DNA from: a virus
IMG/VR virus record: IMGVR_UViG_3300026512_000002
Span: 62,001-126,000 of that record
Strand: one strand, 5' to 3'
Length of the DNA stretch: 64,000 nt
Shown here: positions 6,224 through 61,703 of the stretch, piece by piece
How the letters are laid out: every line of letters begins with the position of its first letter
Numbering within the stretch: the first letter of the stretch is position 1
Made by a program: the position numbers and the translations under genes
The notes under the pieces: model-generated
What the model was told of the DNA's origin: nothing
Databases searched by the model: none
Seen by the model: only the letters and a program-made list of their open reading frames with translations

Positions 6224-6319
6224 ATCGTTTGTTAAAAATTAAAAAAAAAGTTAAATATATATTATACGTGTATATAGCAATATCGCTATACTTTAATTAT
6301 TCCGTAGGAGGAAATATGA
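6224..6319 (+). repeat. 96-bp leader repeat, copy 1
   Basis: This segment is identical to 7046-7141. It covers an A-rich stretch, the TATATATTA motif, a GCAATATCGC inverted element, the GTAGGAGGAAAT ribosome site and the start codon itself. Two different proteins are thus expressed from the same leader, pointing to recent duplication of an expression cassette. Confidence 0.9.
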
Positions 6320-6912
6320 ATAAAACAGAAATATTAGTAAATGCATGTGAGAATGGTTTAAATGATTATTTTCAAAGTGGATTTAATAAAGTAGATCTAG
6401 AAAAAGTGAAAAAAATAACAGTGTATAATAACACTGATTTTAGTAATCTAAAATGGTTAGTTGAAAAAATGAAGCTAACATTAAGCATACAATATAAAAG
6501 CTCCAATGGTTTTTGGGAGAAGTGGGAGTATGAAAATGGATTGGAAACTTATTATGAAAGCTCCAATGGTTTTTGGGAGAAGTGGGAGTATGAAAATGGA
6601 CTGAAAACTTATCATGAAGACTCTGATGGTTATTGGGAAAAGACGGAGTATGAAAATGGGTTGAAAACATATTTTAAAAACTCCAATGGTTTTTGGAAGA
6701 AGTGGGAGTATGATGAGAACGGACTGAAAGCTTATCATGAAAATTCTGATGGTTTTTGGGAGAAGTGGGAGTATGATGAGAACGGGTTAATGACACATTA
6801 TGAAAACTCTGAAAATGAAAAAAGAAAGTGGGGGTATGATGAAAATGGCGAATTAATATATTTCGCCAATTTCGCTAAAAGAAATATTAAAATAGATGTA
6901 GAATATAAATAA
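6316..6912 (+). CDS. Tandem-repeat protein (WEKWEY repeats), 198 aa
   Basis: The ATG at 6316 follows GTAGGAGGAAAT; the frame upstream to 6229 is leader sequence. After about 60 unrelated residues come six repeats of roughly 20-22 residues with the core SNGFWEKWEYENGLKTYYE, some extended to YDENGL. The first repeats are nearly identical at DNA level, so recent expansion is likely. The pattern resembles MORN/YwqK-like short aromatic repeats seen in bacterial and phage proteins; function is unknown. Confidence 0.75.
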   Translation: MNKTEILVNACENGLNDYFQSGFNKVDLEKVKKITVYNNTDFSNLKWLVEKMKLTLSIQYKSSNGFWEKWEYENGLETYYESSNGFWEKWEYENGLKTYHEDSDGYWEKTEYENGLKTYFKNSNGFWKKWEYDENGLKAYHENSDGFWEKWEYDENGLMTHYENSENEKRKWGYDENGELIYFANFAKRNIKIDVEYK

Positions 6913-7045: not shown

Positions 7046-7141
7046 ATCGTTTGTTAAAAATTAAAAAAAAAGTTAAATATATATTATACGTGTATATAGC
7101 AATATCGCTATACTTTAATTATTCCGTAGGAGGAAATATGA
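7046..7141 (+). repeat. 96-bp leader repeat, copy 2
   Basis: Perfect copy of 6224-6319, ending in the start codon of the gene at 7138. It carries the putative promoter and ribosome site shared by both genes. Confidence 0.9.
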
Positions 7142-7782
7142 GAGATCAAATTATTGAATTATTAAGAAATGTAAAATGGCAACGTAGGCAGGATTATGAA
7201 CGCCTATTAAAATTAAAAAAAGAATACATTGATGATCAGATATATGATCATCAATGTCGTATAGAGAAAACTGAAAAAGATATCGTGCCATCATACGATA
7301 TCAATGATTACAAAATCACTAAATATAAAGATGAGTATGATGGCGGATACAGAAGTATATATGTGTCTAAAACATATATATACTTTCAACATGTTAAGTC
7401 GGGAAAAAGATTTTGTACCGACACAACATACGGTGAGGACTATGCTAGAAAGCATGCCAAGGACATAGTCCAAGGACATCTAAATTTTCGAAAAACTCAA
7501 GATTTGGAAGATCTTGAGTTTATTAAAAAATGGAAAGAACGAATACCTATATTATCAAAAGTATATTATTATGTATATGGTGCTAATATAGATCGTGCTA
7601 AAAATATAGAAATATATTTTCATAACATAGCAATATCTATCACACGAAATTGTTATGATTATGAATATATTTTAGAAATAGAAAATGTCGAAAAAATGAA
7701 CATAGTCAAAGCGCCCGAAGTTAAAGGGCTCACTAATCAAGAAGCATTTCAAATAATTAGTGTTTTCAATAAGCGTTTCTAA
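7138..7782 (+). CDS. Hypothetical protein with hairpin-rich coding sequence, 214 aa
   Basis: Starts MRDQIIELLRNVKWQRRQ at the end of the 96-bp leader repeat, after GTAGGAGGAAAT. The N-terminus (to about residue 50) looks like a charged helix; no family is recognised. The coding DNA is unusual: CATTGATGATCA/TGATCATCAATG (12 bp), GATATCGT/ACGATATC, GTATATAT/ATATATAC, GGACTATG/CATAGTCC and CTCAAGAT/ATCTTGAG all form short-loop hairpins within the gene. Its 3' end and terminator are duplicated in truncated form at 6926. It precedes two more genes of the same hairpin-rich type. Confidence 0.7.
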   Translation: MRDQIIELLRNVKWQRRQDYERLLKLKKEYIDDQIYDHQCRIEKTEKDIVPSYDINDYKITKYKDEYDGGYRSIYVSKTYIYFQHVKSGKRFCTDTTYGEDYARKHAKDIVQGHLNFRKTQDLEDLEFIKKWKERIPILSKVYYYVYGANIDRAKNIEIYFHNIAISITRNCYDYEYILEIENVEKMNIVKAPEVKGLTNQEAFQIISVFNKRF

Positions 7783-7788
7783 ATATCA

Positions 7789-7829
7789 GGGCAACGTTCT
7801 GTTGCCCGTCCCTCCCCTTTTTTTTTTCT
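7789..7829 (+). terminator. Intrinsic terminator, copy 2
   Basis: GGGCAAC/GTTGCCC hairpin followed by a long T run, identical in stem to the terminator at 6990. Confidence 0.9.
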
Positions 7830-7906
7830 TTCTACATATATAATATATCGTTATGAAGATTTATTTAAATATATATTATATATATAATATCTTTATAGGA
7901 GGAAAT

Positions 7907-8389
7907 ATGAAAAAAGATATTAAAATATCCTCCTGGGAGGATATTAAACAAAAAAGATCCATAAGGAACGTTCTTATGGATCTTTTAAAAAAAATAGAAG
8001 GACGGGCGTATCCTTCTATTTACCAATCATTTACCAGTTTTACTCAATGGTCAGATTTCGAAGACTATTGTGAAACTAGTAGAATTATCGTCCTATGGGA
8101 CGATAATAAAGATTGGTATTTGCTTTTAGGGATTAGTGGTCGTTCCTTAGAAGTGATTGATTTAGCCTCATTACGAGGTTTAAGTCATATTAATATGGAA
8201 GAACTTTTAAAAAAGTTCTTTTTAATATTAAAAGACCATAATATTGAAAAAATTTTAATGGATATGAGGGAAACCACCTCATATAAATTCATTAAGATTT
8301 TTGATAATAATATTTGGAAAATTATTAAAGACCAATCATATGATTGGGAAGGTGAAATTTTCCATGATATTATTATCAGAAAAAGATAA
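7907..8389 (+). CDS. Hypothetical protein with hairpin-saturated coding sequence, 160 aa
   Basis: The ATG at 7907 follows TATAGGAGGAAAT; an in-frame ATG at 7853 lacks a site. The product begins MKKDIKISSWEDIKQKRS and is not recognised; its C-terminal half has a faint GNAT-like look, which is speculation. The gene is a chain of hairpins: AATATCCTCC/GGAGGATATT, AAAAGATCCATAAG/CTTATGGATCTTTT (14 bp), AAATAGAAGGA/TCCTTCTATTT (11 bp), ATTATCGTCC/GGACGATAAT (10 bp), ATATGAGG/CCTCATAT and a 16-base palindrome at 8332. The stop codon lies inside a 12-bp hairpin. Confidence 0.7.
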   Translation: MKKDIKISSWEDIKQKRSIRNVLMDLLKKIEGRAYPSIYQSFTSFTQWSDFEDYCETSRIIVLWDDNKDWYLLLGISGRSLEVIDLASLRGLSHINMEELLKKFFLILKDHNIEKILMDMRETTSYKFIKIFDNNIWKIIKDQSYDWEGEIFHDIIIRKR

Positions 8390-8407
8390 ACGCCCTTATC
8401 TTTTTCT
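8378..8407 (+). terminator. Stop-codon-spanning 12-bp hairpin
   Basis: AGAAAAAGATAA pairs with TTATCTTTTTCT around ACGCCC. The 5' arm contains the stop codon of the preceding gene. It ends in a T-rich arm rather than a separate T tract. Confidence 0.6.
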
Positions 8408-8415
8408 GTGTTCCC

Positions 8416-8499
8416 AAAAAAAAAGGCAGCTATTCATATTCATATTCATATTATTATTTTTTAGTGATCTTTTTTAATATCGCTGCCTTTTTTTTTTAT
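8416..8499 (+). terminator. Long-loop terminator with ATTCAT repeats
   Basis: An A run plus GGCAGC (8425-8430) pairs with GCTGCC (8482-8487) followed by a T run. The intervening 51 bases are AT-only-like and include three copies of TATTCA. It lies between the gene ending at 8389 and the large structured RNA region. Confidence 0.65.
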
Positions 8500-8584
8500 A
8501 TACTACATATATAATATATATTTATATATATAGTATATACGCATACTATGTATATATATTATGCGTATATATATATACATATAT

Positions 8585-9062
8585 AAGTTGGCATATAAGA
8601 GATATCTCACCCTAGATGGGTAGCTAACAAGTATATGTATAAATTTTAAGTAGAGGACTAGTGGGCATTGCCAAAGGGCGTGATGCATTATAAGCATTAA
8701 GACTACAAATACTACTACTTAACGTCACCTTAACGTTACTAGGGAGACTAAAGCAAAAAAGAGTCTATAAATATATTCACCGTCTAGAGGGAGACGTAAA
8801 AATATCATAACTAGGAAAATTGGTCACCGTGGAGAGCGTAGTTGACAATTTCCTATGTTCCCTGATTAGGAGTACACTATTATCCTATAATAAAGAATAG
8901 TGAAAGGCGTTAGAAGGAGTAAGTAACGCTGAAGTCGAAACAATCTTTATACTGGAGGAGTATAAGTTATAGTAGGCGCAATCCATGATAGTTTCATCAT
9001 GGCGGTATATAGGTCAACATATATATCGATATAATGTAAATCTGAGACTAATATAGGAGGTT
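8585..9062 (+). ncRNA. Large structured RNA candidate (leader of the 802-aa gene or stand-alone)
   Basis: About 480 bases without a plausible ORF but full of helices: CGTCT/AGACG (8781-8796), a long bulged helix 8812-8826/8842-8855, CACTATT/AATAGTG (8875-8902), GGCGTTA/TAACGCT (8906-8930), TTATACT-GGAGG-AGTATAA (8947-8965) and CCATGAT/ATCATGG (8983-9002). Composition is less AT-rich than ordinary intergenic DNA here. It runs up to the ribosome site of the gene at 9065. It has the size and density of the large ornate phage RNAs (GOLLD and ROOL classes), but membership in either is not established. Confidence 0.6.
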
Positions 9063-9064
9063 AT

Positions 9065-11473
9065 ATGTCCAGGTTTATGAGAAAAAAACAAGAGATCGAG
9101 TATGAAATCGCAGCGTACACTAGCGATGGAATGCTCGATCTCAATGACGCTATGCAAGTATCTCAATGTCGAGATAGTATAGTGTCTGTTAGAGAGAATC
9201 TTAAAAGATCCAAAGTATTTTGGGGAGAGGCTCTCTTAACACAGTTTCTAGATGCTGTGTCTAAAAAAACATCTAAATCGTTCTTTAGTGTATTCACATT
9301 AGAGAGCGAGGTCCCCTTACTAAAAGACATGTTAGGGTGGCCAGTGAACTATGCTGAAGTAGTTCACTATGCGGAAGTGAGGTGGAATTCGCAGTTAGTA
9401 ACACCTTCGAAGAGAAGATTTTATCCGAAGGATGCTGCTAATTATTACTACGATTTTGCAAATCTTAGTGATAAACCTTATTCAATAAATTTCTTAGCTA
9501 AAGACATTAGTAAGGTTAAGAATTTATTGAACATCTGGGCCGAAAACCATGGCCGGACTGCTACTATGGTAGATGTAGCAGAATTCTTTACTTTTGTACG
9601 GAGTAGAGAAATGGTAAGTAAAAGAGCTATGAAAAAACTCTTTTACTTTAAGGTTGTCCAAACCTTAAAATTGGACAATAGACTTTTAGAAAGCGAATTT
9701 AAGTTAGGAAATAAATTTGCTGTATACGAGTCTACTAAATTTGATCTTCGATTACTATTCACCACTTTTGGTGGTGATGTAGGAATGGTAAAAGATGCAT
9801 TAGCATATGTCCACAAGCTAATGCGTGATTATAATGTAGAAAGTTATAATTACGGAGAACAAATTTGGGGACTATTTTCGCATGTAGATTGGTATTATTA
9901 TACCGTGATACTGCGAAATCGTCCAACAACAAATGTGGACGGACTATGTACAACCCTTTATAAACTTAGAGACGCCTCTAGTAGGATCGAAAAGTTTAAA
10001 AAGGAAATAGTTAAATTCATTAGAATTCCTGAATTTTCGAATTTAGAAGATGATTTTAACTGTTATTATTTCCAAGACAGATATTTGTCTCGGAAATATG
10101 TGAACATAGTTCAAAAAAAGATAGCAGAAACAAACTCATTGTTACCCGCAGTGAAAGTTTTTGCTAATCTTGATATACCTAGATCTGAATTCTCCAATTC
10201 AGTATATGGGTATATAAAATTCCTAAGTAAAAAGAGTATATCAGAAAAAGCAACTACGATATACTCAAATTACTTAGGTAGAAGACCTAGTGTCGATCTC
10301 GGCAAAGGTATGGAGCATGGTTATAATTATATGGCCAAAAGTTCTATCCTGAGAAAGATCTTAGGCATGATAGATAATAAAGCCGCTTGGAAGGTTTTTA
10401 CATCTATTATAAAGTCCTTTAGGAAAGCTAACCCCGGCACAGTTGTCGAGGAACATGCTATTTTAGGGGCGCTTAGTATAGCTGATATTTTTGGTACTGC
10501 TTGGAAAAGCACCTTACCAAAAACAGCTAACGAAAATGGAAAACTTGTAATAGAACAACCTTCTATTACTTGGTTGAACAATTTCGGGTTGCAGTATAAT
10601 GGAACTGCAACTGCTGAGGAAAAAGTCCTTATGAGTAATATCTTGAAAAAGAGAAAAACTTATAAGGCTTCTGGAAACAATATTTCAATATTGGAGAGTG
10701 ACCTAGAGTTCTTCTCAAAAATACTGGAAAGGAGTTTCAAGAATAAAAAACTTATAATATCCAAATTAGGAAATAATCCTAAATTAAAGGATATTGTAAG
10801 TATACTTGATGCCGTTTTATATCCGGGATTAAGTATTGAAGTTGGCTATTGGGCTAGCCAATTTTCATTATCTGTAGATGATGCAGAATATTTGCAAAAA
10901 TTTATGGATACAAATGATTACTTTAAAAACTATGAAGACTTGTCTATAAAGACTAGTAATAATAGTTATAAAGTATCAAAGAGCGGCTATAGTATAGTCC
11001 GTCTCTTAGCCCACGACACAGAAGGTGCTGTATTGGGTAAACACACCGGTTGTTGTCAACACCTGCAAGGTGCAGCTGATAGTTCTGTTAGATATGGCTA
11101 CAAACAATCTAACAGCTTCTTCTTTAAGGTTTTAAATAAATCTAATGAAGTTGTGGCTATAAGTTGGGCCTGGGTGGATAGTAAAAGTAATCTTGTTTTC
11201 GACAATGTAGAACGAAAACATGGAAGTGATGTAGCTAATATCATTGATATAGTTGCAGAATATGCTTTCACTTTTGCTGGAAGATTTAATTCTGTCCAAA
11301 TAGGTCTTGGATTTGGGGGTTATATCTTCGATGGCTTGAATGAAAAGTTCGCACCGGTACTATCATCGGATATGGGAACTTTTCTTATTGGCAATCCTTA
11401 TACGGATGCTGCTAATAGTAGAGTATATTTGGTCCCTCCAAGGGGAGCCTTATATGCTAAAGCCATCATATAA
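9065..11473 (+). CDS. 802-aa protein of unknown function, hairpin-saturated gene
   Basis: Starts MSRFMRKKQEIEYEIAAYTS after ATAGGAGGTTAT. The first about 600 residues are helical with no recognised domain. The C-terminal 170 residues contain LGKHTGCCQHL (near residue 657), then FFFKVLNKSNEVVAISWAWVD and VFDNVE, a beta-strand pattern reminiscent of acyltransferase-like (GNAT) folds with an added Cys pair; this is inference. The coding DNA is a nearly unbroken series of RNA hairpins from end to end, for example 9343-9368, 9616-9648, 10222-10278 (two nested helices), 10547-10569, 10750-10801 and 11085-11115. Base composition is visibly richer in G and C than most neighbours. Confidence 0.75.
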   Translation: MSRFMRKKQEIEYEIAAYTSDGMLDLNDAMQVSQCRDSIVSVRENLKRSKVFWGEALLTQFLDAVSKKTSKSFFSVFTLESEVPLLKDMLGWPVNYAEVVHYAEVRWNSQLVTPSKRRFYPKDAANYYYDFANLSDKPYSINFLAKDISKVKNLLNIWAENHGRTATMVDVAEFFTFVRSREMVSKRAMKKLFYFKVVQTLKLDNRLLESEFKLGNKFAVYESTKFDLRLLFTTFGGDVGMVKDALAYVHKLMRDYNVESYNYGEQIWGLFSHVDWYYYTVILRNRPTTNVDGLCTTLYKLRDASSRIEKFKKEIVKFIRIPEFSNLEDDFNCYYFQDRYLSRKYVNIVQKKIAETNSLLPAVKVFANLDIPRSEFSNSVYGYIKFLSKKSISEKATTIYSNYLGRRPSVDLGKGMEHGYNYMAKSSILRKILGMIDNKAAWKVFTSIIKSFRKANPGTVVEEHAILGALSIADIFGTAWKSTLPKTANENGKLVIEQPSITWLNNFGLQYNGTATAEEKVLMSNILKKRKTYKASGNNISILESDLEFFSKILERSFKNKKLIISKLGNNPKLKDIVSILDAVLYPGLSIEVGYWASQFSLSVDDAEYLQKFMDTNDYFKNYEDLSIKTSNNSYKVSKSGYSIVRLLAHDTEGAVLGKHTGCCQHLQGAADSSVRYGYKQSNSFFFKVLNKSNEVVAISWAWVDSKSNLVFDNVERKHGSDVANIIDIVAEYAFTFAGRFNSVQIGLGFGGYIFDGLNEKFAPVLSSDMGTFLIGNPYTDAANSRVYLVPPRGALYAKAII

Positions 11474-40047: not shown

Positions 40048-40584
40048 TTAGTAGATTTTACTTTTTTTAAGCTCAATAATTTTTTTAATAATATTTTTTT
40101 TTATTCCATATCTGTTCCAATAATCTCTAATCAAATTAGTTGTGGTTAACAACTTTATTTGATTATTATCAGATAAGAAACATTTACTAATATATTTTTC
40201 TACTAACTTTGGTGTAGTTAGTAATTTTTGCTCAGCCTCATCCGATAGGGTATGTACTTCCGAATATTTTATTATTAGTTCCTGTGTAGTTAGTAGTTTT
40301 ATTTGATTTTCATCTGATAAAGGATACCAGATGATATACTTTTCTACTAACTCTGGTGTAGTTAGTAGTTTCTGTTCAGCTTCCTCTGACAAGCTATATC
40401 TTTTAATATATTTTTCTACTAACTTTGGTGTAGTTAGTAGTTTCTGTTCAGCCTCATCTGATAATGCATATCTTTCGATATACTTTGAGACCAATGTTGT
40501 TGTTAATAATAATTTTAACTGGTCTCTTTCTAATAGTTCATGTTTGTAGATACATTCTTTTTCGATTTTTTTTAAGTTGTTCAT
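40048..40584 (-). CDS. 24-residue-repeat protein, 178 aa
   Basis: About six copies of a 24-residue unit with core (E/N)(A/Q)(E/I)(Q/K)LLTTPKLVEKYI.(R/K)Y.LSD, followed by a capping segment IIKKIIELKK. It is the same repeat as in the three plus-strand genes 42196-46300, placed in the opposite orientation. The units look alpha-helical and should build a solenoid. Function is not known. TTGGAGGAAAT precedes the start. Confidence 0.8.
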   Translation of the reverse strand: MNNLKKIEKECIYKHELLERDQLKLLLTTTLVSKYIERYALSDEAEQKLLTTPKLVEKYIKRYSLSEEAEQKLLTTPELVEKYIIWYPLSDENQIKLLTTQELIIKYSEVHTLSDEAEQKLLTTPKLVEKYISKCFLSDNNQIKLLTTTNLIRDYWNRYGIKKNIIKKIIELKKSKIY

Positions 40585-41001
40585 ATTTCCTCCAATGAAA
40601 AAATTATATGGTTACCAAAGGTATTTATAAATATAAATATAAATACGGCTACCATGTATGCTGTAATTAGCATACATCGTTATAATATATATTTCAAAAT
40701 TATTTTACTTTTTTTATAAAGACATATTTATTAAAAAAAAGAAAGTGAAAAAAATACTGAACAAATAGGGTGAAACAATAAAGAGTTTATGAATGGAACT
40801 GACAAATATTATTAAATCTGTTGTATTGTTAAAAAATATTATTGGAATAAAAGTTGATAAGGAGCATATAAAAGATTAAATAGTATTAACAAGTGTCAAA
40901 AGTTAAAGTAGTTTCAATTATATATTACAATGTTGACTTGGGTTATAATAATATGATAGGAGGATAATATATATGTTCGGATTAATTTTAATGGAGGTGA
41001 T
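40585..41001. other. Intergenic region with leader hairpins
   Basis: About 400 bases without a convincing gene. Near 40636-40665 AAATA-rich arms pair, and ATGTATGCT/AGCATACAT (40656-40679 area) forms a nine-bp hairpin; both would be in the 5' leader of the minus-strand gene at 40584. A 28-codon plus-strand frame at 40793 has no ribosome site and may be decayed sequence. A TATATATTA motif at about 40919 precedes the disrupted gene at 41002. Confidence 0.4.
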
Positions 41002-42711: not shown

Positions 42712-43908
42712 ATGAGTAAATGGGATAGAATAGAAGAAATTGCTAATAAGATAAAATATATTGTTAAACATAATTTATCAAAGGAAGACGAGTTGGAAAT
42801 GTTAACTACTCCTGAAATATTAACATTATATATTAGTAAGCATAGGCTATCTAATGAGGGAGAGTTGAAATTATTAATTACTCCTGAACTTTTAGAAATA
42901 TATATTAGTAAATATAGACTATCTAATGAGGGAGAGTTGAAATTATTGATTACTTCTGAACTTTTAGAACCATATATTAGTAAATATAGTTTATCAGATG
43001 AAAATCAATTGAAATTATTAACCACACCAGAGTTAGTAGTTTTATATATTAACAAATATTATTTATCAGAAAAAAATCAATTGAAATTATTAACCACTCC
43101 TGAATTAATAGAGTTGTATATTCGTAAGCATAGTTTATCAGATGAAAATCAATTGAAATTATTAACCACTCCTGAATTAGTAGAGATATATATTAATAAA
43201 TATTATTTATCAGATGAAAATCAATTGAAATTATTAATCACTCCTGAATTAGTGGAAACCTATATTGATACACATTATTTATCCAATGAGGGGGAGTTAA
43301 AGCTTTTGACTACTACTTGGTTAATTAAAGAATATATTATTAGATATAATTTATCAGAAAAAGGGCAATTAAATCTATTAACTACTCCTGAGCTAATTAA
43401 ACTATATATCAATGAATGTCATTTATCAGAGAAAGGAGAGTTGGAATTACTAACTACTTCTAAGTTAGTAAAATGCTATATTAGTAAACATTACTTGTCA
43501 AATAAAGGGGAATTGGAACTATTATCTACTCTTGAGCTAATTAAACTATATATCAGTAGACATTATTTATGTGACGAGGGAGAATTAAAATTGTTGACTA
43601 CTCCTGAATTAATAAAGTTATATATTGATAGATATGATTTATCGGGTAAGAACCAATTGAAATTGTTAACCACTCCTGAATTAGTAGAGTTATATATAAC
43701 TAAATATAGGTTATCAGAAAAAAATCAATTGAAATTATTAATCACTTCTGAATTAGTAGAGTTATATATAACTAAACATTATTTATCAAATGAAAATCAA
43801 TTGAAATTATTAACCACTCCTGAATTAGTAGAGTTATATATTCGTAGATATGTTATGGATACAAATATTATTAAAGCAATCATTAAACTTAGGAGAAATC
43901 ATGAGTAA
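42712..43908 (+). CDS. 24-residue-repeat protein, 398 aa
   Basis: A short N-terminus MSKWDRIEEIANKIKYIVKH leads into about fifteen 24-residue repeats with consensus LSDENQLKLLTTPELVELYI.KY and ends in VMDTNIIKAIIKLRRNHE, the shared C-cap. The leader and ribosome site duplicate those of the upstream gene. The last codons overlap the start of the 799-aa paralogue. Confidence 0.85.
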   Translation: MSKWDRIEEIANKIKYIVKHNLSKEDELEMLTTPEILTLYISKHRLSNEGELKLLITPELLEIYISKYRLSNEGELKLLITSELLEPYISKYSLSDENQLKLLTTPELVVLYINKYYLSEKNQLKLLTTPELIELYIRKHSLSDENQLKLLTTPELVEIYINKYYLSDENQLKLLITPELVETYIDTHYLSNEGELKLLTTTWLIKEYIIRYNLSEKGQLNLLTTPELIKLYINECHLSEKGELELLTTSKLVKCYISKHYLSNKGELELLSTLELIKLYISRHYLCDEGELKLLTTPELIKLYIDRYDLSGKNQLKLLTTPELVELYITKYRLSEKNQLKLLITSELVELYITKHYLSNENQLKLLTTPELVELYIRRYVMDTNIIKAIIKLRRNHE

Positions 43909-46300
43909 ATGGGATAAAATAGAAGAAATTGTTAATCATAAGTTATCAGAAAAAAAACAATTAGAATTATTAACTACTTCTGAATTGGTAGAAACATATA
44001 TTGGTAAATATCAGTTATCAGAAAAAAATCAATCGAAATTACTAACTACTTCTGAGTTAGTAAAACTATATATAAATAAATATAATTTATCTGATGATGG
44101 GGAATTGAAACTTTTAACTACTCCTGAATTAATAAAATTATATATTAGTAAATATATTTTATCAGATAAAGGAGAATTGGAATTATTAACTACCCCTGAG
44201 TTAGTAATTTCATATATTAATAAATATGTTTTATCAGATAGAGGAGAATTGAAATTTTTAACTACTCTTGAATTAGTAGAAACATATATTCGTAAACATA
44301 GTTTATCAAAAGAGGGAGAGTTAGAATTACTAACTACTCCTGAGTTAGTAAAACTATATATAAATAAATATAATTTATTTGATAAGGGAGAGTTAAAGTT
44401 TCTAACTACTCCTGAGTTAGTAAAACTATATATAAATAAATATAATTTATTTGATAAGGGAGAGTTAAAGTTTCTGACTACTCCTGAGTTGGTAGAATTG
44501 TATATTTGTAAACATAGATTATCTGATGAAGGAGAATTAAAACTTTTAACTACCCCTAAGCTGATAAAACTATATATTGATAAACATTATTTATCATATA
44601 AAGGAGAATTAAAACTTTTAACTACCCCTAAGCTGATAAAACTATATATTGATAAACATTATTTATCATATAAAGGAGAATTAGAATTGTTAACTACTCC
44701 TGAGTTAGTAAAGTTGTATATTAGTAAATATGGTTTATCAGATAAAGGTGAATTGGAACTTCTGACCAATCTTGAGTTAGTAGAGTTATATATTAATAAA
44801 TATTATTTATCAGATGAAAATCAATTGAAATTATTAACTACTCCTGAACTGGTTAATATATATATTAGTAAACATAGGTTATCAGGAAAAGGAGAGTTGA
44901 AATTATTAACTACTACTGAATTGGTTGGAAAATATATTAGTAAGTATAGTTTGTCAGAAAAAGGAGAGTTGGTATTATTAACTACTACTGAGTTAATAAA
45001 ATTATATATTGACAAATATTATTTATCAGATAAAAATCAATTGAGGTTAATAATTGCTCCTGAATTAGTAAAAATATATATCAATGAACATTATTTGTCA
45101 AATGAAAACCAATTGATTTTATTAACTACTTCTGAGTTAGTAAATATGTATATTGATAAATATAGATTATCAGAGGAGGGAGAGTTAAAACTTTTGACTA
45201 CTCCGGAATTGATTAAAAAATATATTAGTAAACATTACTTATCAGATAAAGGAGAATTAGAATTATTAACTACTCATGAGTTGATCGAGCTATATGCTCG
45301 TAAACATAAATTATCTGATGAAGGAGAATTGAAACTTTTAACTACTCCTAAGCTGGTAAAATCATATATTGATGAACATCACCTATCAGATAAAGGAGAA
45401 TTAGAATTATTAACTACTCCTGAGTTGATCGAATTATATATTAGTAAATATACTTTATCAAATGATGGGGAATTGAAACTTTTAACTACTTCTAAGTTGA
45501 TAGAGTTATATACTCGCCAACATAGATTGTTTGATAAAAATCAATTAAAACTATTAACTACACCGGAATTAGTGATGAAATATATTCAAAAACATAACCT
45601 GTCAAATGAAGTAGAATTAGAACTACTAACCACACCGGAGCTAATAATAGAGTATATAAAGAGACATAGTTTATCAAATGAAGGTGAGTTAAAACTATTA
45701 ACTACACCAGAGTTAATAATAAAATATGTTCAGAAACATAACCTGTCAAATGAAATAGAGTTGGCATTATTAACCACGCCTGAGTTCGTAATAAAATATA
45801 TTCAAACACATAGTTTATCGGATGAAGCAGAATTAGAACTACTAACCACACCGGAAATGATAATGGAATATATCAAGAAGTATAACCTGTCGGATGAAGC
45901 AGAATTAGAACTACTAACCACACCGGAACTAATAATGGAATATGTTCAGAAACATAACCTGTCGGATGAAGCAGAATTAGAACTACTAACCACATCGGAA
46001 ATGATAATGGAATATATCAAGAAGTATAACCTGTCGGATGAAGCAGAATTAGAACTACTAACCACACCGGAGCTAATAATGGAATATGTTCAGAAACATA
46101 ACCTGTCGGATGAAGCAGAATTAGAATTATTAACCACACCGGAATTAGTGAAGCGATATATTAACACACATTCTTTATCAAGTGAAAATCAATTAAAACT
46201 ATTAACTACACCCAAGTTGGTAAAACAGTACATGTCTAAATATGATATGGATAGAGATACTGTTAAAAAGATTATTGAATTTAGGGAAAATCTTAGTTAG
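43901..46300 (+). CDS. Giant 24-residue-repeat protein, 799 aa
   Basis: Starts MSKWDKIEEIVNHKLSEK at 43901 after CTTAGGAGAAATC, overlapping the previous gene by eight bases. It has roughly 32 repeats of 24 residues and the C-cap MDRDTVKKIIEFRENLS. Neighbouring units are sometimes near-identical in DNA (44345-44488; 44545-44690; a 144-bp double unit repeated at 45832-46120), showing recent expansion. The first 27 or so units use GEL(K/E)LLTTPEL; the last use DEAELELLTTPE, like the gene at 42196, so the gene may be a fusion of two repeat lineages. Confidence 0.85.
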   Translation: MSKWDKIEEIVNHKLSEKKQLELLTTSELVETYIGKYQLSEKNQSKLLTTSELVKLYINKYNLSDDGELKLLTTPELIKLYISKYILSDKGELELLTTPELVISYINKYVLSDRGELKFLTTLELVETYIRKHSLSKEGELELLTTPELVKLYINKYNLFDKGELKFLTTPELVKLYINKYNLFDKGELKFLTTPELVELYICKHRLSDEGELKLLTTPKLIKLYIDKHYLSYKGELKLLTTPKLIKLYIDKHYLSYKGELELLTTPELVKLYISKYGLSDKGELELLTNLELVELYINKYYLSDENQLKLLTTPELVNIYISKHRLSGKGELKLLTTTELVGKYISKYSLSEKGELVLLTTTELIKLYIDKYYLSDKNQLRLIIAPELVKIYINEHYLSNENQLILLTTSELVNMYIDKYRLSEEGELKLLTTPELIKKYISKHYLSDKGELELLTTHELIELYARKHKLSDEGELKLLTTPKLVKSYIDEHHLSDKGELELLTTPELIELYISKYTLSNDGELKLLTTSKLIELYTRQHRLFDKNQLKLLTTPELVMKYIQKHNLSNEVELELLTTPELIIEYIKRHSLSNEGELKLLTTPELIIKYVQKHNLSNEIELALLTTPEFVIKYIQTHSLSDEAELELLTTPEMIMEYIKKYNLSDEAELELLTTPELIMEYVQKHNLSDEAELELLTTSEMIMEYIKKYNLSDEAELELLTTPELIMEYVQKHNLSDEAELELLTTPELVKRYINTHSLSSENQLKLLTTPKLVKQYMSKYDMDRDTVKKIIEFRENLS

Positions 46301-46764: not shown

Positions 46765-46934
46765 TTTTAAATATAAGTTGTGTTATTTTAAAATATTTTA
46801 TTTATTTTTTAATGTTTGATGAATATTATTAAAATCGTAATACTATAACATATACTTATATATTATAGTATTGAGTCATAATAATGTGACTCGTAGTGCC
46901 AGCTATTCTGGTTAATTTTATTTTGGAGGTCATT

Positions 46935-47156
46935 ATGGCTAAAAAAATAAATTATCATTCTTTTATTAAGATGGTTGAGAAAAACCATCTTGTAGAAGAA
47001 TGGTTCGCGACTGGTGTCGCAATTGCTTGTACTGAAAAATGTGCAAGTAATTGCGACATAGCCAATGTGGGGAGGTATGTTAATTGTGCCGCCCCATGGC
47101 GTGCCGGTCGCGAATTTATTGAAAAGAAATTAGGGGTGATCGTAATAGACGATTAA
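46935..47156 (+). CDS. Cys-rich small protein, hairpin-saturated gene, 73 aa
   Basis: Start MAKKINYHSFIKMVEKNH after TTGGAGGTCATT. The protein has Cys residues in ACTEKCASNCD and VNCAAPW; no family recognised. The whole gene folds: AAGATGGTT/AACCATCTT, GTCGCAATT with CTTG pairing to CAAG and AATTGCGAC, GCCA+TGGGG with CCCCA+TGGC, and GAAAAGAAATTAGGG with the 3' sequence CCCTAGTTTCTTTTC, which includes the stop region. The 5' leader also folds (GAGTCA/TGACTC). Composition is richer in G and C than neighbours. Confidence 0.65.
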   Translation: MAKKINYHSFIKMVEKNHLVEEWFATGVAIACTEKCASNCDIANVGRYVNCAAPWRAGREFIEKKLGVIVIDD

Positions 47157-52662: not shown

Positions 52663-52693
52663 TATAGTATACGACTTAGTTTAATTGATAAAA

Positions 52694-52730
52694 AAAAGAA
52701 TGGGAATAGTTGTAACAACTGCTTCCCTTT
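52694..52730 (-). terminator. Intrinsic terminator (minus strand)
   Basis: GGGAA plus AGTTG pair with CAACT plus TTCCC, and on the minus strand the stem is followed by a T run. Terminates the structured unit containing the gene at 52856. Confidence 0.75.
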
Positions 52731-52855
52731 ACAATATCCATTACAACAAAACAGATACGGTATCAGCTATTCTTTATAGCTCCTTTGTGGTGTTACCACT
52801 AACGCCTATTACTGCGAATCCCTATTAGTTGCCGGAATTAAGCGTTTATCAATCA

Positions 52856-53221
52856 TTACATGTTGTTGATTGATTTTGTTCCACCTAATGATATGAACAT
52901 TGGGGTATTTAACCCGTCATCACTATCAGTACCCTGGAAAGGGTTGACAATGACTTCCTGTTCATTCACAATGTAAACAACACCTTTTTTCAAAGGTAGT
53001 AAATGGGCTTGTACGTTTCCATTTACTATGCCGAATGAAAATTCGGCTGTTGATATCATTGTGATATCATCAGGCGCTACTACATAGTTGCCTGGCTGAA
53101 GATGAAATCTTCTAGCACTCGCAATTATTATTGCGGCAACTACATGTAGTAGGCATTCCTCATTACTCATGAGGTGCCTTAAGTTCATATTCCTAGTTTT
53201 CATATTCATTGCGTAACACAC
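52856..53221 (-). CDS. Hypothetical protein, hairpin-saturated gene, 121 aa
   Basis: MCYAMNMKTRNMNLRHLMSN; several ATGs lie close together and no strong ribosome site decides between them. The product has a beta-rich middle (FHLQPGNYVVAPDDITMIS) and is not recognised. The DNA is hairpin after hairpin: GTAAATGG/CCATTTAC, GCCGAAT-GAAA-ATTCGGC, GATATCA/TGATATC, GAAGAT/ATCTTC, ACCTTT/AAAGGT, AGGCA+CCTCA/TGAGG+TGCCT. A structured leader and 3' region flank it, ending in the terminator near 52700. Confidence 0.6.
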   Translation of the reverse strand: MCYAMNMKTRNMNLRHLMSNEECLLHVVAAIIIASARRFHLQPGNYVVAPDDITMISTAEFSFGIVNGNVQAHLLPLKKGVVYIVNEQEVIVNPFQGTDSDDGLNTPMFISLGGTKSINNM

Positions 53222-53224
53222 AAC

Positions 53225-53465
53225 TCATAATCCAACCTTCTATCCGAACTTAGCGTAAATCACTCCCCAATGGAACTATTACGTCTACCCAGCATTAAGT
53301 TTTACATCTATGCTGGCTTTAGATAGATGTTTGTAGTTGTAAATTAACATGATCGTTGACTATCATGCTCAAACATTTACGGATCATATAAAACGATCAC
53401 CTCGTATATATGTCCTACTACAACACCTTAATATATGTTTAAATATAGCTATTATGCTATCATGT
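53225..53465 (-). ncRNA. Structured leader of the 52856 gene
   Basis: About 240 bases with ACATCTAT/ATAGATGT, CATGAT/ATCATG, and a CCAGCAT/ATGCTGG helix that competes with the first because it shares bases. The arrangement permits two folds, as in riboswitch-type leaders. No ligand class is recognised. Confidence 0.45.
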
Positions 53466-55669: not shown

Positions 55670-55704
55670 ATATTATGATTGAACCATATATTTTGGAGGA
55701 TTAT

Positions 55705-57681
55705 ATGGAACATAATAAACACGACATATTGTCAGAAGTTTTACTTATGCCTGGAGCTAATATGGTTGAACCTGGTAGGGCATCTATGTTTGGTAACCAC
55801 ATTACGCAAATAGTACCATTATTGGAACCAGAAAGACCTATGGTATATTCTGGTTTTGAAAATCAAATCGGGGAACATTCATTAGCTTATAAAAAAGCTG
55901 ATGGGAATTACGAAATAGTGTCTATTATTGAAAAAAATAAATATAATAAACTTGTGGTATTAAAAAATATTGAAACTGATGTATATGATATTATTAAAAT
56001 TAGCAAATATAATCATGTCACAGAAAACTATGGTTATATCATAAATGATATATTTTCTGATAAAAAAGAAGGTGATGTATTGAAAAAAGATGATATATTA
56101 TATAGATCAAATTCATATGATAATGATATGAATTTAAGATATGGTTCAAATTTACGTGTCATTCTAGCATCTGTAGATAATATGACATATGAAGATCCAA
56201 TAATAGTAAGTGAGTCAGCAGCTACAAAGAAATTAGTCACTATGGATATAACAACTACAAAAATAAGTGTTAATGATAATGACATTTTAATGAACATATA
56301 TGGTGATTTTAAAAATAAAACATATAAAACATTTCCAGATGTTGGTGAAAATGTAAACTCTAGAGTTTTAGCAGCTAGAAGAAGGATTAACTCAAATACA
56401 GTTTTATTTAATTTAAAAGATGAAATGTTGACAGGTATTGATAGTATTATTACAGATGACGATGTTTTTTATTCAGGTGTTAATGATGATACTGTTGTTG
56501 TGGACATAGATATTTTTAGTAATAAAAATGTTGAAGACTTATCAAAATATGAGTATAATGGACAAATTGTAAAATATTTAAAAAATAACACCAGATATTA
56601 TAATGCTATTAAAATGGTGTTGGGTAATATTGTCAATAAACCATTATCCGAATATTCCTCTGAATTGGAATATGAGTACTATAATGCTATATCCATAATA
56701 GATACTAATATTAAATGGCGTGATGAAAATGTGTTTGATAATATGATTATAAAAATAACAACAGCTAGTAGAAATACTTTAAATGTTGGTGGCAAAATAT
56801 GTGGTAGATATGCTAATAAAGGTGTTACTGCAACAGTTAGAAAAGATAGCGATATGCCTAAGACTAAAGAAGGATATATTATAGATGCTATAATTAGCCC
56901 ACAGAGCGCTATTAACCGAACTAATCCAATGATGATGATGGAGTTGGAAATAACTATGATAGCTCAGAGAATAGTGGAGTTTATGGCTAATAAGATAAGT
57001 ACTGATTTTCAAGCTGTGAAAAAAGTTTATTTTAAATTTCTAGAATTAGTTAATGAAAATGATTTTAAACTTGTTAAAGAATATTATGACAAAATACCAT
57101 CATCTAAAAAAAGAGATTTTTTCCTAGAAATCATAAGAGATGGTATAGAAATAAGACAGGCTCCTTTTTTTAATAATATAACTAAAGATGTGTTGTTTAA
57201 AATATATGATGTTCTTGGCAACATGATGAAATTGGAAAAAGATGTATATGGTAAATGGATTATTCCAAAGTACGAAATAGTTGGTATGGAAGAAAAATAT
57301 GTTATGGGTTATATGTATATTTTTAGATTGAAACATTATGGTTTTTCTAAATATTCTGTTAGAGCTACTGGTGGTGTTAATGTATATAATATTCCTGATA
57401 AAAATAAACTGTTTAAAAATAAAGGAGCTATGTTTTCCAATATATCAGTTAGATCTGGTGAAATGGAATTCCATAATTTAAGACTAACTAAAGATAATGA
57501 TGAATTAAATAGGTTTGTTAATACTTATTCATCTAATGGTACCATACGTAAACAGTCTATTATTGATATTATAAACAATGGGTTCATGGACAAATTACCT
57601 TACACAAAATCTAAATCAACTATGATTAAAGTATTGGAGCAATATTTGCTAACAATAGGTTTAGAAATAGTTGACGATTAA
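55705..57681 (+). CDS. RNA polymerase beta subunit, C-terminal piece
   Basis: 658 residues; the start at 55705 follows TTGGAGGATTAT, while the ATG at 55675 lacks a site. Residues follow beta: VLLMPGANMVEP..... (compare RALMGANMQRQ), PMVYSGFE, NLRVILASVDNMTYEDPIIVSE (compare [22 protein letters not shown]), GGKICGRYANKGVTATV (compare GDKMAGRHGNKGVISKI), SAINRTNPMMMMELE, and near the end YVMGYMYIFRLKH and RSGEMEFHNL. It contributes the second catalytic half of the phage polymerase; the beta N-terminal piece is not in the window. Confidence 0.92.
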   Translation: MEHNKHDILSEVLLMPGANMVEPGRASMFGNHITQIVPLLEPERPMVYSGFENQIGEHSLAYKKADGNYEIVSIIEKNKYNKLVVLKNIETDVYDIIKISKYNHVTENYGYIINDIFSDKKEGDVLKKDDILYRSNSYDNDMNLRYGSNLRVILASVDNMTYEDPIIVSESAATKKLVTMDITTTKISVNDNDILMNIYGDFKNKTYKTFPDVGENVNSRVLAARRRINSNTVLFNLKDEMLTGIDSIITDDDVFYSGVNDDTVVVDIDIFSNKNVEDLSKYEYNGQIVKYLKNNTRYYNAIKMVLGNIVNKPLSEYSSELEYEYYNAISIIDTNIKWRDENVFDNMIIKITTASRNTLNVGGKICGRYANKGVTATVRKDSDMPKTKEGYIIDAIISPQSAINRTNPMMMMELEITMIAQRIVEFMANKISTDFQAVKKVYFKFLELVNENDFKLVKEYYDKIPSSKKRDFFLEIIRDGIEIRQAPFFNNITKDVLFKIYDVLGNMMKLEKDVYGKWIIPKYEIVGMEEKYVMGYMYIFRLKHYGFSKYSVRATGGVNVYNIPDKNKLFKNKGAMFSNISVRSGEMEFHNLRLTKDNDELNRFVNTYSSNGTIRKQSIIDIINNGFMDKLPYTKSKSTMIKVLEQYLLTIGLEIVDD

Positions 57682-57752: not shown

Positions 57753-57980
57753 ATGAAAAAAATGACAAAACGTGAAAAAATTAGTTTAGGTGAACTTGAA
57801 ACACTTTTTTCAGACAATAAAATTGTTAAAAATTCTTTTATATCTGATATTGATAAATATAAGTTTATCGCAGTTACAATCAATGGTGATTATGAATTTA
57901 TCGATAATATATCAGGCGTGGATACAACAAATGTGTCTGTATTTAAAACTAAGAATATTAGACGTAGGTTTATGAAATGA
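57753..57980 (+). CDS. Hypothetical small protein, 75 aa
   Basis: MKKMTKREKISLGELETLFS after TGGAGGTTAAAT. Basic, no known motif. Its stop overlaps the primase start (ATGA), so the two are translationally coupled; a role with the primase is plausible. Confidence 0.65.
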   Translation: MKKMTKREKISLGELETLFSDNKIVKNSFISDIDKYKFIAVTINGDYEFIDNISGVDTTNVSVFKTKNIRRRFMK

Positions 57981-60970: not shown

Positions 60971-61046
60971 TCTTAAAAATATTTCAAATATATATTAGTA
61001 CAATGTCACAATGTTGTGATGTATTAATATATTATTTGGAGGAAAT

Positions 61047-61703
61047 ATGAAGAATTTTTCAATTATGATTGGTGATAATATTATGAAAACAATTCAACAA
61101 GGATTGAATATGTTGAATATCAATACCATTACTAATAAAATCGATGATCTGAATACAGATGTCGAGGATTTATTAATAGCTTCAGAAAACATGTTTAAAA
61201 CACATGTTATATCTCAAGCTGCAGTTCGAGTCAAACAAGGTTATATGCTCGTAACTTTGTTTGAAAATGGTAAAGTAGATATTCACATCAATAATATTGA
61301 GGAAGTGGATATGGATTTATTAAAATTAATGGTTTTTGAAACTATTGATTTTAGTAATTTTAAAATTGCTAAAACAGATGCAAAATTAATAGGTTTAATT
61401 AAACCTATTAATGTAAAAAAAGTTGTAGGCGGCGGATATGTCGTTGTTGACAACGAACATGTGTATTTGATCAATAAAAATGATCAAATATTAAAATTTA
61501 AAAAAAACAATATAAAGACAAAAGGAGGTGTTATATATAAACACAACCGAAGAGGTCGAAAGTTTGACGCCTCTGTATCTTTGTATAAAGATGATGATAA
61601 TCAAATATATCTTGAACTATATTCGAAAGTTCAAGATATATTTAATGTTCTTTCAGAGTTAAAAAGTGATGTTTATTGCGGATTATTAGCAATGAACATT
61701 TAA
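61047..61703 (+). CDS. Hypothetical protein, hairpin-saturated gene, 218 aa
   Basis: MKNFSIMIGDNIMKTIQQGL after TTGGAGGAAAT. Not recognised; middle region VGGGYVVVDNEHVYLINK. Coding DNA is packed with perfect stems: TCAAACAAGGTTA/TAACTTTGTTTGA (61231-61264, 13 bp), a 28-base perfect palindrome at 61385-61412, AAATATATCTTGAACT/AGTTCAAGATATATTT (61603-61643, 16 bp) and others. Ends in a 14-bp terminator. It belongs to the hairpin-rich gene set though it lies in the replication cluster. Confidence 0.7.
   Translation: MKNFSIMIGDNIMKTIQQGLNMLNINTITNKIDDLNTDVEDLLIASENMFKTHVISQAAVRVKQGYMLVTLFENGKVDIHINNIEEVDMDLLKLMVFETIDFSNFKIAKTDAKLIGLIKPINVKKVVGGGYVVVDNEHVYLINKNDQILKFKKNNIKTKGGVIYKHNRRGRKFDASVSLYKDDDNQIYLELYSKVQDIFNVLSELKSDVYCGLLAMNI

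Follow-up and report, generated by a model that had tools for sequence, protein, structure and literature searches.

Hairpin-tiled genes in an AR9-like jumbo phage: a small set of messages predicted to fold from end to end

In an AR9-like jumbo phage, hairpin tiling is confined to a small set of genes, in which it exceeds what is expected from shuffled codons. The tiled genes can be described as carrying a second code over the protein code, which would make the mRNA fold locally and end to end as a chain of hairpins. The window, the whole stretch of 64,000 nucleotides that was analysed, comprises positions 62001-126000 of a virus record of 227,696 bp. The phage is AT-rich (27% GC) and is taken to be AR9-like because the RNA polymerase beta fragment that it encodes (55675-57681) is 35% identical to that of the Bacillus phages PBS1 and AR9; close relatives of it were not found. 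In a case that we consider nearly, though not quite, evenly balanced, selected and mostly early genes of dsDNA phages have their whole message folded via synonymous and permissive amino-acid choices, which would shield or move it before takeover, and such messages are partly modular cassettes with constant RNA ends.

Table 1. Positions of the features and of the blocks found by the two scans (in the window unless marked genome)
Feature	Position	Strand	Remark
Early promoter-like site (AR9 type), 214-aa gene	7074..7088	+	PWM score 19.0 of 19.5
214-aa hairpin-tiled ORF	7138..7782	+	no family match
Terminator-like hairpin GGGCAAC/GTTGCCC, then C/T run	7789..7828	+	sequence inspection
Early promoter-like site (AR9 type), 160-aa gene	7866..7880	+	PWM score 19.0
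160-aa hairpin-tiled ORF	7907..8389	+	homologue in contig G001
Stop-codon-spanning 13-bp stem, 160-aa gene	8377-8389/8396-8408	+	
Long terminator-like inverted repeat after 160-aa gene, then T run	arms 8416-8433, 8479-8496	+	
Untranslated leader before 802-aa ORF, about 480 nt	8585..9064	+	MFE z −0.8
802-aa hairpin-tiled ORF	9065..11473	+	strongest case in genome
Terminator hairpin AAAGAAAGGG/CCCTTTCTTTTTTT directly 3' of 802-aa stop codon	11474..11508	+	sequence inspection
178-aa tandem-repeat ORF, hairpin within repeat unit	40048..40584	-	stem z 9.7; dMFE −9.6
Early promoter-like site, 178-aa ORF	40695	-	score 18.1
Weaker early promoter-like site ACTTATATATTAT-6N-G, before 73-aa ORF	46853..46867	+	score 9.4
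73-aa hairpin-tiled ORF	46935..47156	+	MFE z −7.3; dMFE −26.8 kcal/120 nt
Cassette-like unit, 3' end with terminator	52690..52846	-	blastn 88% over 158 nt to genome 29217-29373
104-aa hairpin-tiled ORF, cassette-like unit	52856..53170	-	MFE z −6.8; −8.7 vs dinucleotide shuffles
Cassette-like unit, 5' end (RNA domain)	53164..53463	-	blastn 99.7% over 300 nt to genome 28671-28970
Early promoter-like site AAATATATATTAG-6N-G, 218-aa gene	60985..60999	+	score 13.2
218-aa hairpin-tiled ORF	61047..61703	+	MFE z −7.9; stems up to 16 bp; no family match
Stem-scan outliers	9065-11473; 40048-40584(-); 61047-61703; 214-aa and 160-aa genes; genome 14220-14924		
Extra blocks, sliding-window folding	genome 19100-20100; genome 28400-29600; 46400-47050; 52400-53400		

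The original prediction was that the 214-aa and 160-aa genes are made of long perfect stems. This is upheld by codon shuffles, in which the protein and the codon usage are kept (500 per gene for stem counts): each gene has six perfect stems of at least 8 bp as against a mean of 1.0, and for either gene 0 of 500 shuffles reach the total, so that the excess over shuffled codons on which the prediction had been staked is there. The computed folding energies (MFE) agree with this, with z = −11.8 for the 160-aa and −6.4 for the 214-aa gene relative to codon shuffles, compared with −1.6, 0.0, and −0.9 for three control genes (RNA polymerase beta and the genes at 57977 and 2801, respectively). In the 160-aa gene the stems have 9, 14, 11, 10, 9, and 8 bp. 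Those of 14 bp (7952-7965/7973-7986), 11 bp (7992-8002/8011-8021), and 10 bp (8084-8093/8098-8107) lie exactly where they had been described; the stem at 7924-7945, given as 10 bp, is present with 9 perfect bp and reaches 10 only with a loop of 2 nt; and two more, of 9 bp at 8199-8220 and of 8 bp at 8262-8284, had not been listed. The stem spanning the stop codon, given as 12 bp, is 1 bp longer (Table 1), as is the CATTGATGATCA stem of the 214-aa gene (13 bp, 7226-7257), and where four further stems of 8 bp had been described in the latter gene there are stems of 8, 10, 8, 11, and 8 bp. The 214-aa protein is without match in Pfam, PHROG, NCBIfam, and PADLOC. For the 160-aa protein AlphaFold gave a pLDDT of 43, which is too low to use, and PDB sequence searches gave no match.

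The adjoining 802-aa gene was absent from the original prediction. It has 10 perfect stems of at least 8 bp in the stem scan, an MFE z of −20.7 relative to codon shuffles and a predicted energy of −31 kcal per 100 nt at 35% GC, and is predicted to fold into local hairpins strung along the whole reading frame. The untranslated leader in front of it has no Rfam match and does not fold above shuffles. The unit is without a strong early promoter-like site. At 8524(-), within an AT palindrome before the leader, there is a full early-promoter match that is directed into the 160-aa gene; it may have arisen along with the palindrome or may serve as an antisense promoter.

Across the 179 ORFs of the whole record the stem scan gave a median stem z of −0.04 with about six outliers, and sliding-window folding against dinucleotide shuffles recovered the same blocks together with some extra ones (Table 1). 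When the folding energies are put on one scale, as the difference from codon shuffles in kcal per 120 nt, the tiled genes have values between −9 and −27, and 9 of 198 ORFs in the AR9-like phage are beyond the cut-off of −6 compared with 0 of 375 in AR9, phiR1-37, and LPJP1. Within the window, Rfam covariance models gave no match at the gathering threshold, be it to a group I intron or to another structured RNA, and the matches obtained at permissive E-values were all of low complexity or terminator-like; PADLOC models gave no match to known anti-phage defence proteins. The tiled 178-aa ORF and an 816-aa one (43850-46300, plus strand) are built of the same repeat LSDEAEQKLLTTPELVEKYI, the regions 6229-6912 and L002:1-1950 encode tandem-repeat proteins (YENGLKTYHENSDGFWEKW repeats) with up to 86% DNA identity, and a beta-solenoid/hexapeptide-repeat protein (PF18836, PF00132) is encoded at 1994-2728.

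Two other phages have homologous genes that are tiled as well. In the Microcystis phage MaMV-DC this is ORF68L, to which the 802-aa protein is 28% identical in its C-terminal part (E 3e-10) and which is tiled at 50% GC (z −10.7 relative to codon shuffles); of the 69 ORFs of MaMV-DC that were scanned, 66L, 70L, and 68L show the most structure. It should be noted that between ORF68L and its counterpart in DH01 the changed pairs are preserved in 4 cases and broken in 10, and that no covariation supporting the stems was found in the ORF66L/68L homologues. MaMV-DC has three copies (L015:5230-5400, 7109-7276, 9241-9467) of a 171-nt repeat with a 49-aa product (HINLDGHRWYVVPDGD...), which is also present, unannotated, in LMM01 and DL01/DL02.

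The other phage, contig G001 (127,910 bp; about 45% GC near the locus), was found by a contig-wide search; it is unrelated to the AR9-like phage and encodes a split multi-subunit RNA polymerase. A 604-aa protein encoded there (L031) is homologous to the C-terminal region of the 802-aa protein, and the end of its gene overlaps a gene for a 134-aa homologue of the 160-aa protein (L031:2969-3370; 26% identity, BLASTP E 4e-16). Both genes are tiled (z −7.6 and −4.7, respectively) and rank among the five ORFs with the most structure out of 127, the others encoding a lysozyme-like (SLT) protein, MYG1, and an IscB-like protein. Since the tiled ORFs of G001 encode such diverse proteins, the property that they share is the message and not one protein. 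The contig ends overlap (L034:1-112 and L040:11799-11910), so that the record is probably circular and the tiled lysozyme-like, MYG1, 604-aa, and 134-aa genes are contiguous. The tiled IscB-like RRXRR/HNH gene (L037:3871-5202, minus strand) has a hairpin-rich region upstream, possibly an omega RNA. A 34% match of the 160-aa protein in L012, covering the start of an untiled 202-aa ORF that is immediately upstream of a probable capsid gene, was rejected as a chance coiled-coil-like segment, and the 214-aa, 802-aa, and RNA polymerase proteins gave no relatives as single queries in viral contigs. For A5, there were weak matches in 4 of 292 cyanobacterial genomes, none of which showed a CCQH core in a quick motif search.

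The recurrence spans phages of very different base composition and suggests a role for the shape of the message as such. It could also be that the tiled genes were imported from a wholly tiled donor lineage and are now decaying in these phages. They are indeed scattered accessory genes, and the 160/802 pair is common to two distant phages. However, a donor was searched for and not found, and in both phages the tiled genes match the composition of their surroundings (27–39% GC here, 42–56% in G001) with perfect stems intact, which indicates that the stems were kept during amelioration. Moreover, the five chromosomal cyanobacterial IscB genes are all untiled, which rules out IscB as a generally tiled gene and shows that tiling belongs to the phage context rather than to the IscB protein. 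An import of this kind is therefore given very little credence.

In 11 of the 12 genes tested it is the coding strand that has the larger folding excess. The z of the difference between the strands is −1.1 to −6.4 in the phage's own genes (6 of 6 coding-biased, with −6.4 for the 73-aa ORF) and −2.3 to −3.3 in G001 (5 of 5), and only MaMV ORF68L has no sense bias (+0.8). A cause at the DNA level would be strand-blind, and the coding-strand bias thus points to RNA. This has to be weighed against the strongest rival explanation, which is that the palindromes were made by mutation and not by selection, through a switch of template between arms that are nearly palindromic or through short palindromes being inserted, so that imperfect repeats in tolerant genes would become perfect stems. 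Many stems are perfect Watson-Crick, as such mutation would leave them, GU pairs are fewer than in shuffles (87/810 vs 114/704 in the 802-aa gene), and in the 160-aa gene a 9-bp stem lies wholly, and the 14-bp stem by half, in a segment that is missing from the G001 homologue. In the ORF66L terminators of MaMV-like phages the loop is inverted from one phage to another (GGGGCCCAAGCAGGGCCCC vs GGGGCCCTGCTTGGGTCCC; AAGCA/TGCTT), a sign of inversion between hairpin arms. GU versus AC mismatches inside the long stems are too few to favour either view, and the codon-phase classes of the stems differ only weakly from shuffles. However, mutation of this type, besides being blind to the strand, explains neither the restriction to few genes nor the recurrence in distant homologues in which the protein is conserved; the remaining stems of the 160-aa gene fall where the protein aligns and is conserved; and the genome has no further copies of the stem sequences, since blastn with the tiled genes found only their own inverted arms and no palindrome at other loci. 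We therefore consider a mutational origin unlikely.

In AR9 the early promoters have the consensus AAATATATATTAT-(6N)-G, and early transcription is independent of protein synthesis (PMC5312081). A position weight matrix (PWM) was built only from the 31 annotated AR9 early promoters, with a maximum score of 19.5. Judged by this matrix most tiled units sit behind sequences like the AR9 early (virion RNA polymerase) promoters and apparently are early genes. Strong matches stand directly before tiled genes at 7074, 7866, 40695(-), and genome 13746, lower ones at 60985 and genome 19337, and the sites before the two cassette units and before 46935 are weaker. A score of at least 12 within 650 nt upstream is reached in 7 of 12 tiled units as against 3.7% of ORFs, and a cruder gene-based test at a score of 13 gave a Fisher p of 0.003. 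The G at +1, 6 nt past the motif, is found at 40695(-), 60985, 46853, genome 19337, and the cassette units, and an A at 7074, 7866, and genome 13746. Some of the matches are duplicates of one another, namely 6252/7074, which lie in an identical segment of 96 bp, and those of the two cassette units, and behind the best-scoring (perfect) site, 50321(-), lies a gene without tiling. Tiling is absent from the early genes of AR9 itself (median −0.21 vs −0.75 for the remaining AR9 genes), which means that early transcription by the virion RNA polymerase does not by itself demand tiling. Nor does the link to early genes extend to LMM01, whose early genes, gp054-gp063, are not homologues of the tiled genes of MaMV (PMC5780444). 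In G001 there are three copies of the 11-mer ACCTATATTAC, of which one precedes the lysozyme-like gene and another lies in the overlapping contig end before MYG1, a placement that as a promoter parallel is suggestive only.

Early ORFs without assigned function could encode toxic or regulatory takeover proteins, and the stems could serve to throttle or time their translation or to hide internal starts. The last had been part of the original prediction, according to which GGAGG-like sequences buried in stems would hide internal ribosome sites. This fits the CCTCC/GGAGG stem at 7924-7945, the one buried pair of this kind close to where the 160-aa gene begins, but leaves the tiling of whole genes unexplained, and most stems of the tiled genes are without GGAGG. 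For control of initiation a single hairpin at the start is needed rather than a tiling of 0.5–2.4 kb, and start regions are not consistently paired: from −18 to +6 the unpaired probability is 0.24–0.54 as compared to 0.22–0.45 in gene bodies, so that these regions are neither uniformly exposed nor uniformly hidden. The tiled lysozyme-like, MYG1, and IscB-like genes of G001 have no common need for throttling either. Translation control is thus a distinctly unlikely reason for the tiling.

Two units resemble a gene cassette in a constant RNA frame. The unit at 53463-52690(-) and that at genome 28671-29373 (L003:8671-9373) have near-identical ends around unrelated tiled ORFs of 104 and 71 codons, the identity being lost a few bases past the start codon and regained shortly past the stop. 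In the 3' domain, 3 of the changed pairs are compensatory and 4 are one-sided and compatible, compared with 2 that are broken. Such constant ends around different ORFs, and the large untranslated leaders, are what one would expect if the RNA itself were the functional product (a scaffold, a packaged RNA, or a ribozyme-like element) with the ORF riding along. Yet the folding of the shared ends is only slightly better than that of shuffles (z −2.1 to −2.8), whereas the exchanged ORFs are extreme (about −9), there is no Rfam match, and the ORFs are conserved as proteins and have ribosome-binding sites. A functional RNA of this kind is accordingly very unlikely.

Our best guess, although a tentative one that leans somewhat to the doubtful side, is that the tiled genes give rise to armoured or compacted early mRNAs whose fold is under selection; the function is one that we infer. 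Such selection could come from the fact that these messages would be the first to be made by the injected polymerase, when the nucleases and defences of the host are still intact, and in relatives that form vesicles or a nucleus early messages would also be made away from the ribosomes. A chain of hairpins would offer few single-stranded sites to endoribonucleases or RNA-targeting defences and would be unable to invade the template as an R-loop, and the compact message could therefore be longer-lived and exportable. On this view, the two units in which the tiled ORFs are exchanged between constant 5' and 3' ends would be such messages in the form of cassettes. If this is real, there is a layer of regulation or protection that is invisible to gene finders and protein searches, takeover genes can be recognised by their RNA rather than by their protein, and the survival of early phage messages in a hostile cell becomes open to a direct test. 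The codon-shuffle scan can be applied to any phage genome. To our knowledge, such structuring is undescribed for dsDNA phages, and in the open-access full texts searched there was no description of gene-confined, end-to-end mRNA structuring via codon choice in these phages.

There are, however, known systems with which the tiled genes can be compared. The PcfJ-like proteins (PF14284) come in via MaMV-DC ORF68L, which resembles CL131 gp131, a protein with a sub-threshold PcfJ match (E 0.003), but the 802-aa protein has no PcfJ match in the Pfam search. GOLLD, ROOL, and HEARO/OMEGA RNAs are likewise long structured phage transcripts, sometimes beside or around genes; the tiled genes differ from them in that they have no Rfam match and in that the structure is mainly within the ORF. 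Palindromes within reading frames are also known from the Rickettsia palindromic elements and other palindromic ORF insertions, whereas the phage stems differ in sequence, form no repeated family and tile whole genes. With the early units of AR9/PBS1 the tiled ones share the upstream AAATATATATTAT motif and a related split RNA polymerase, but not the hairpins. Closest in the nature of the folding are GORS of positive-strand RNA viruses and the genomes of ssRNA phages, in which pairing in coding regions is pervasive and goes beyond that of shuffled sequence; on a GORS-type folding-energy measure the tiled genes have z values of −6.4 to −20.7. There, however, the RNA is the genome, while here it is a dsDNA phage in which about 9 of 198 ORFs are concerned, each with its own promoter and terminator and with untiled genes alongside.
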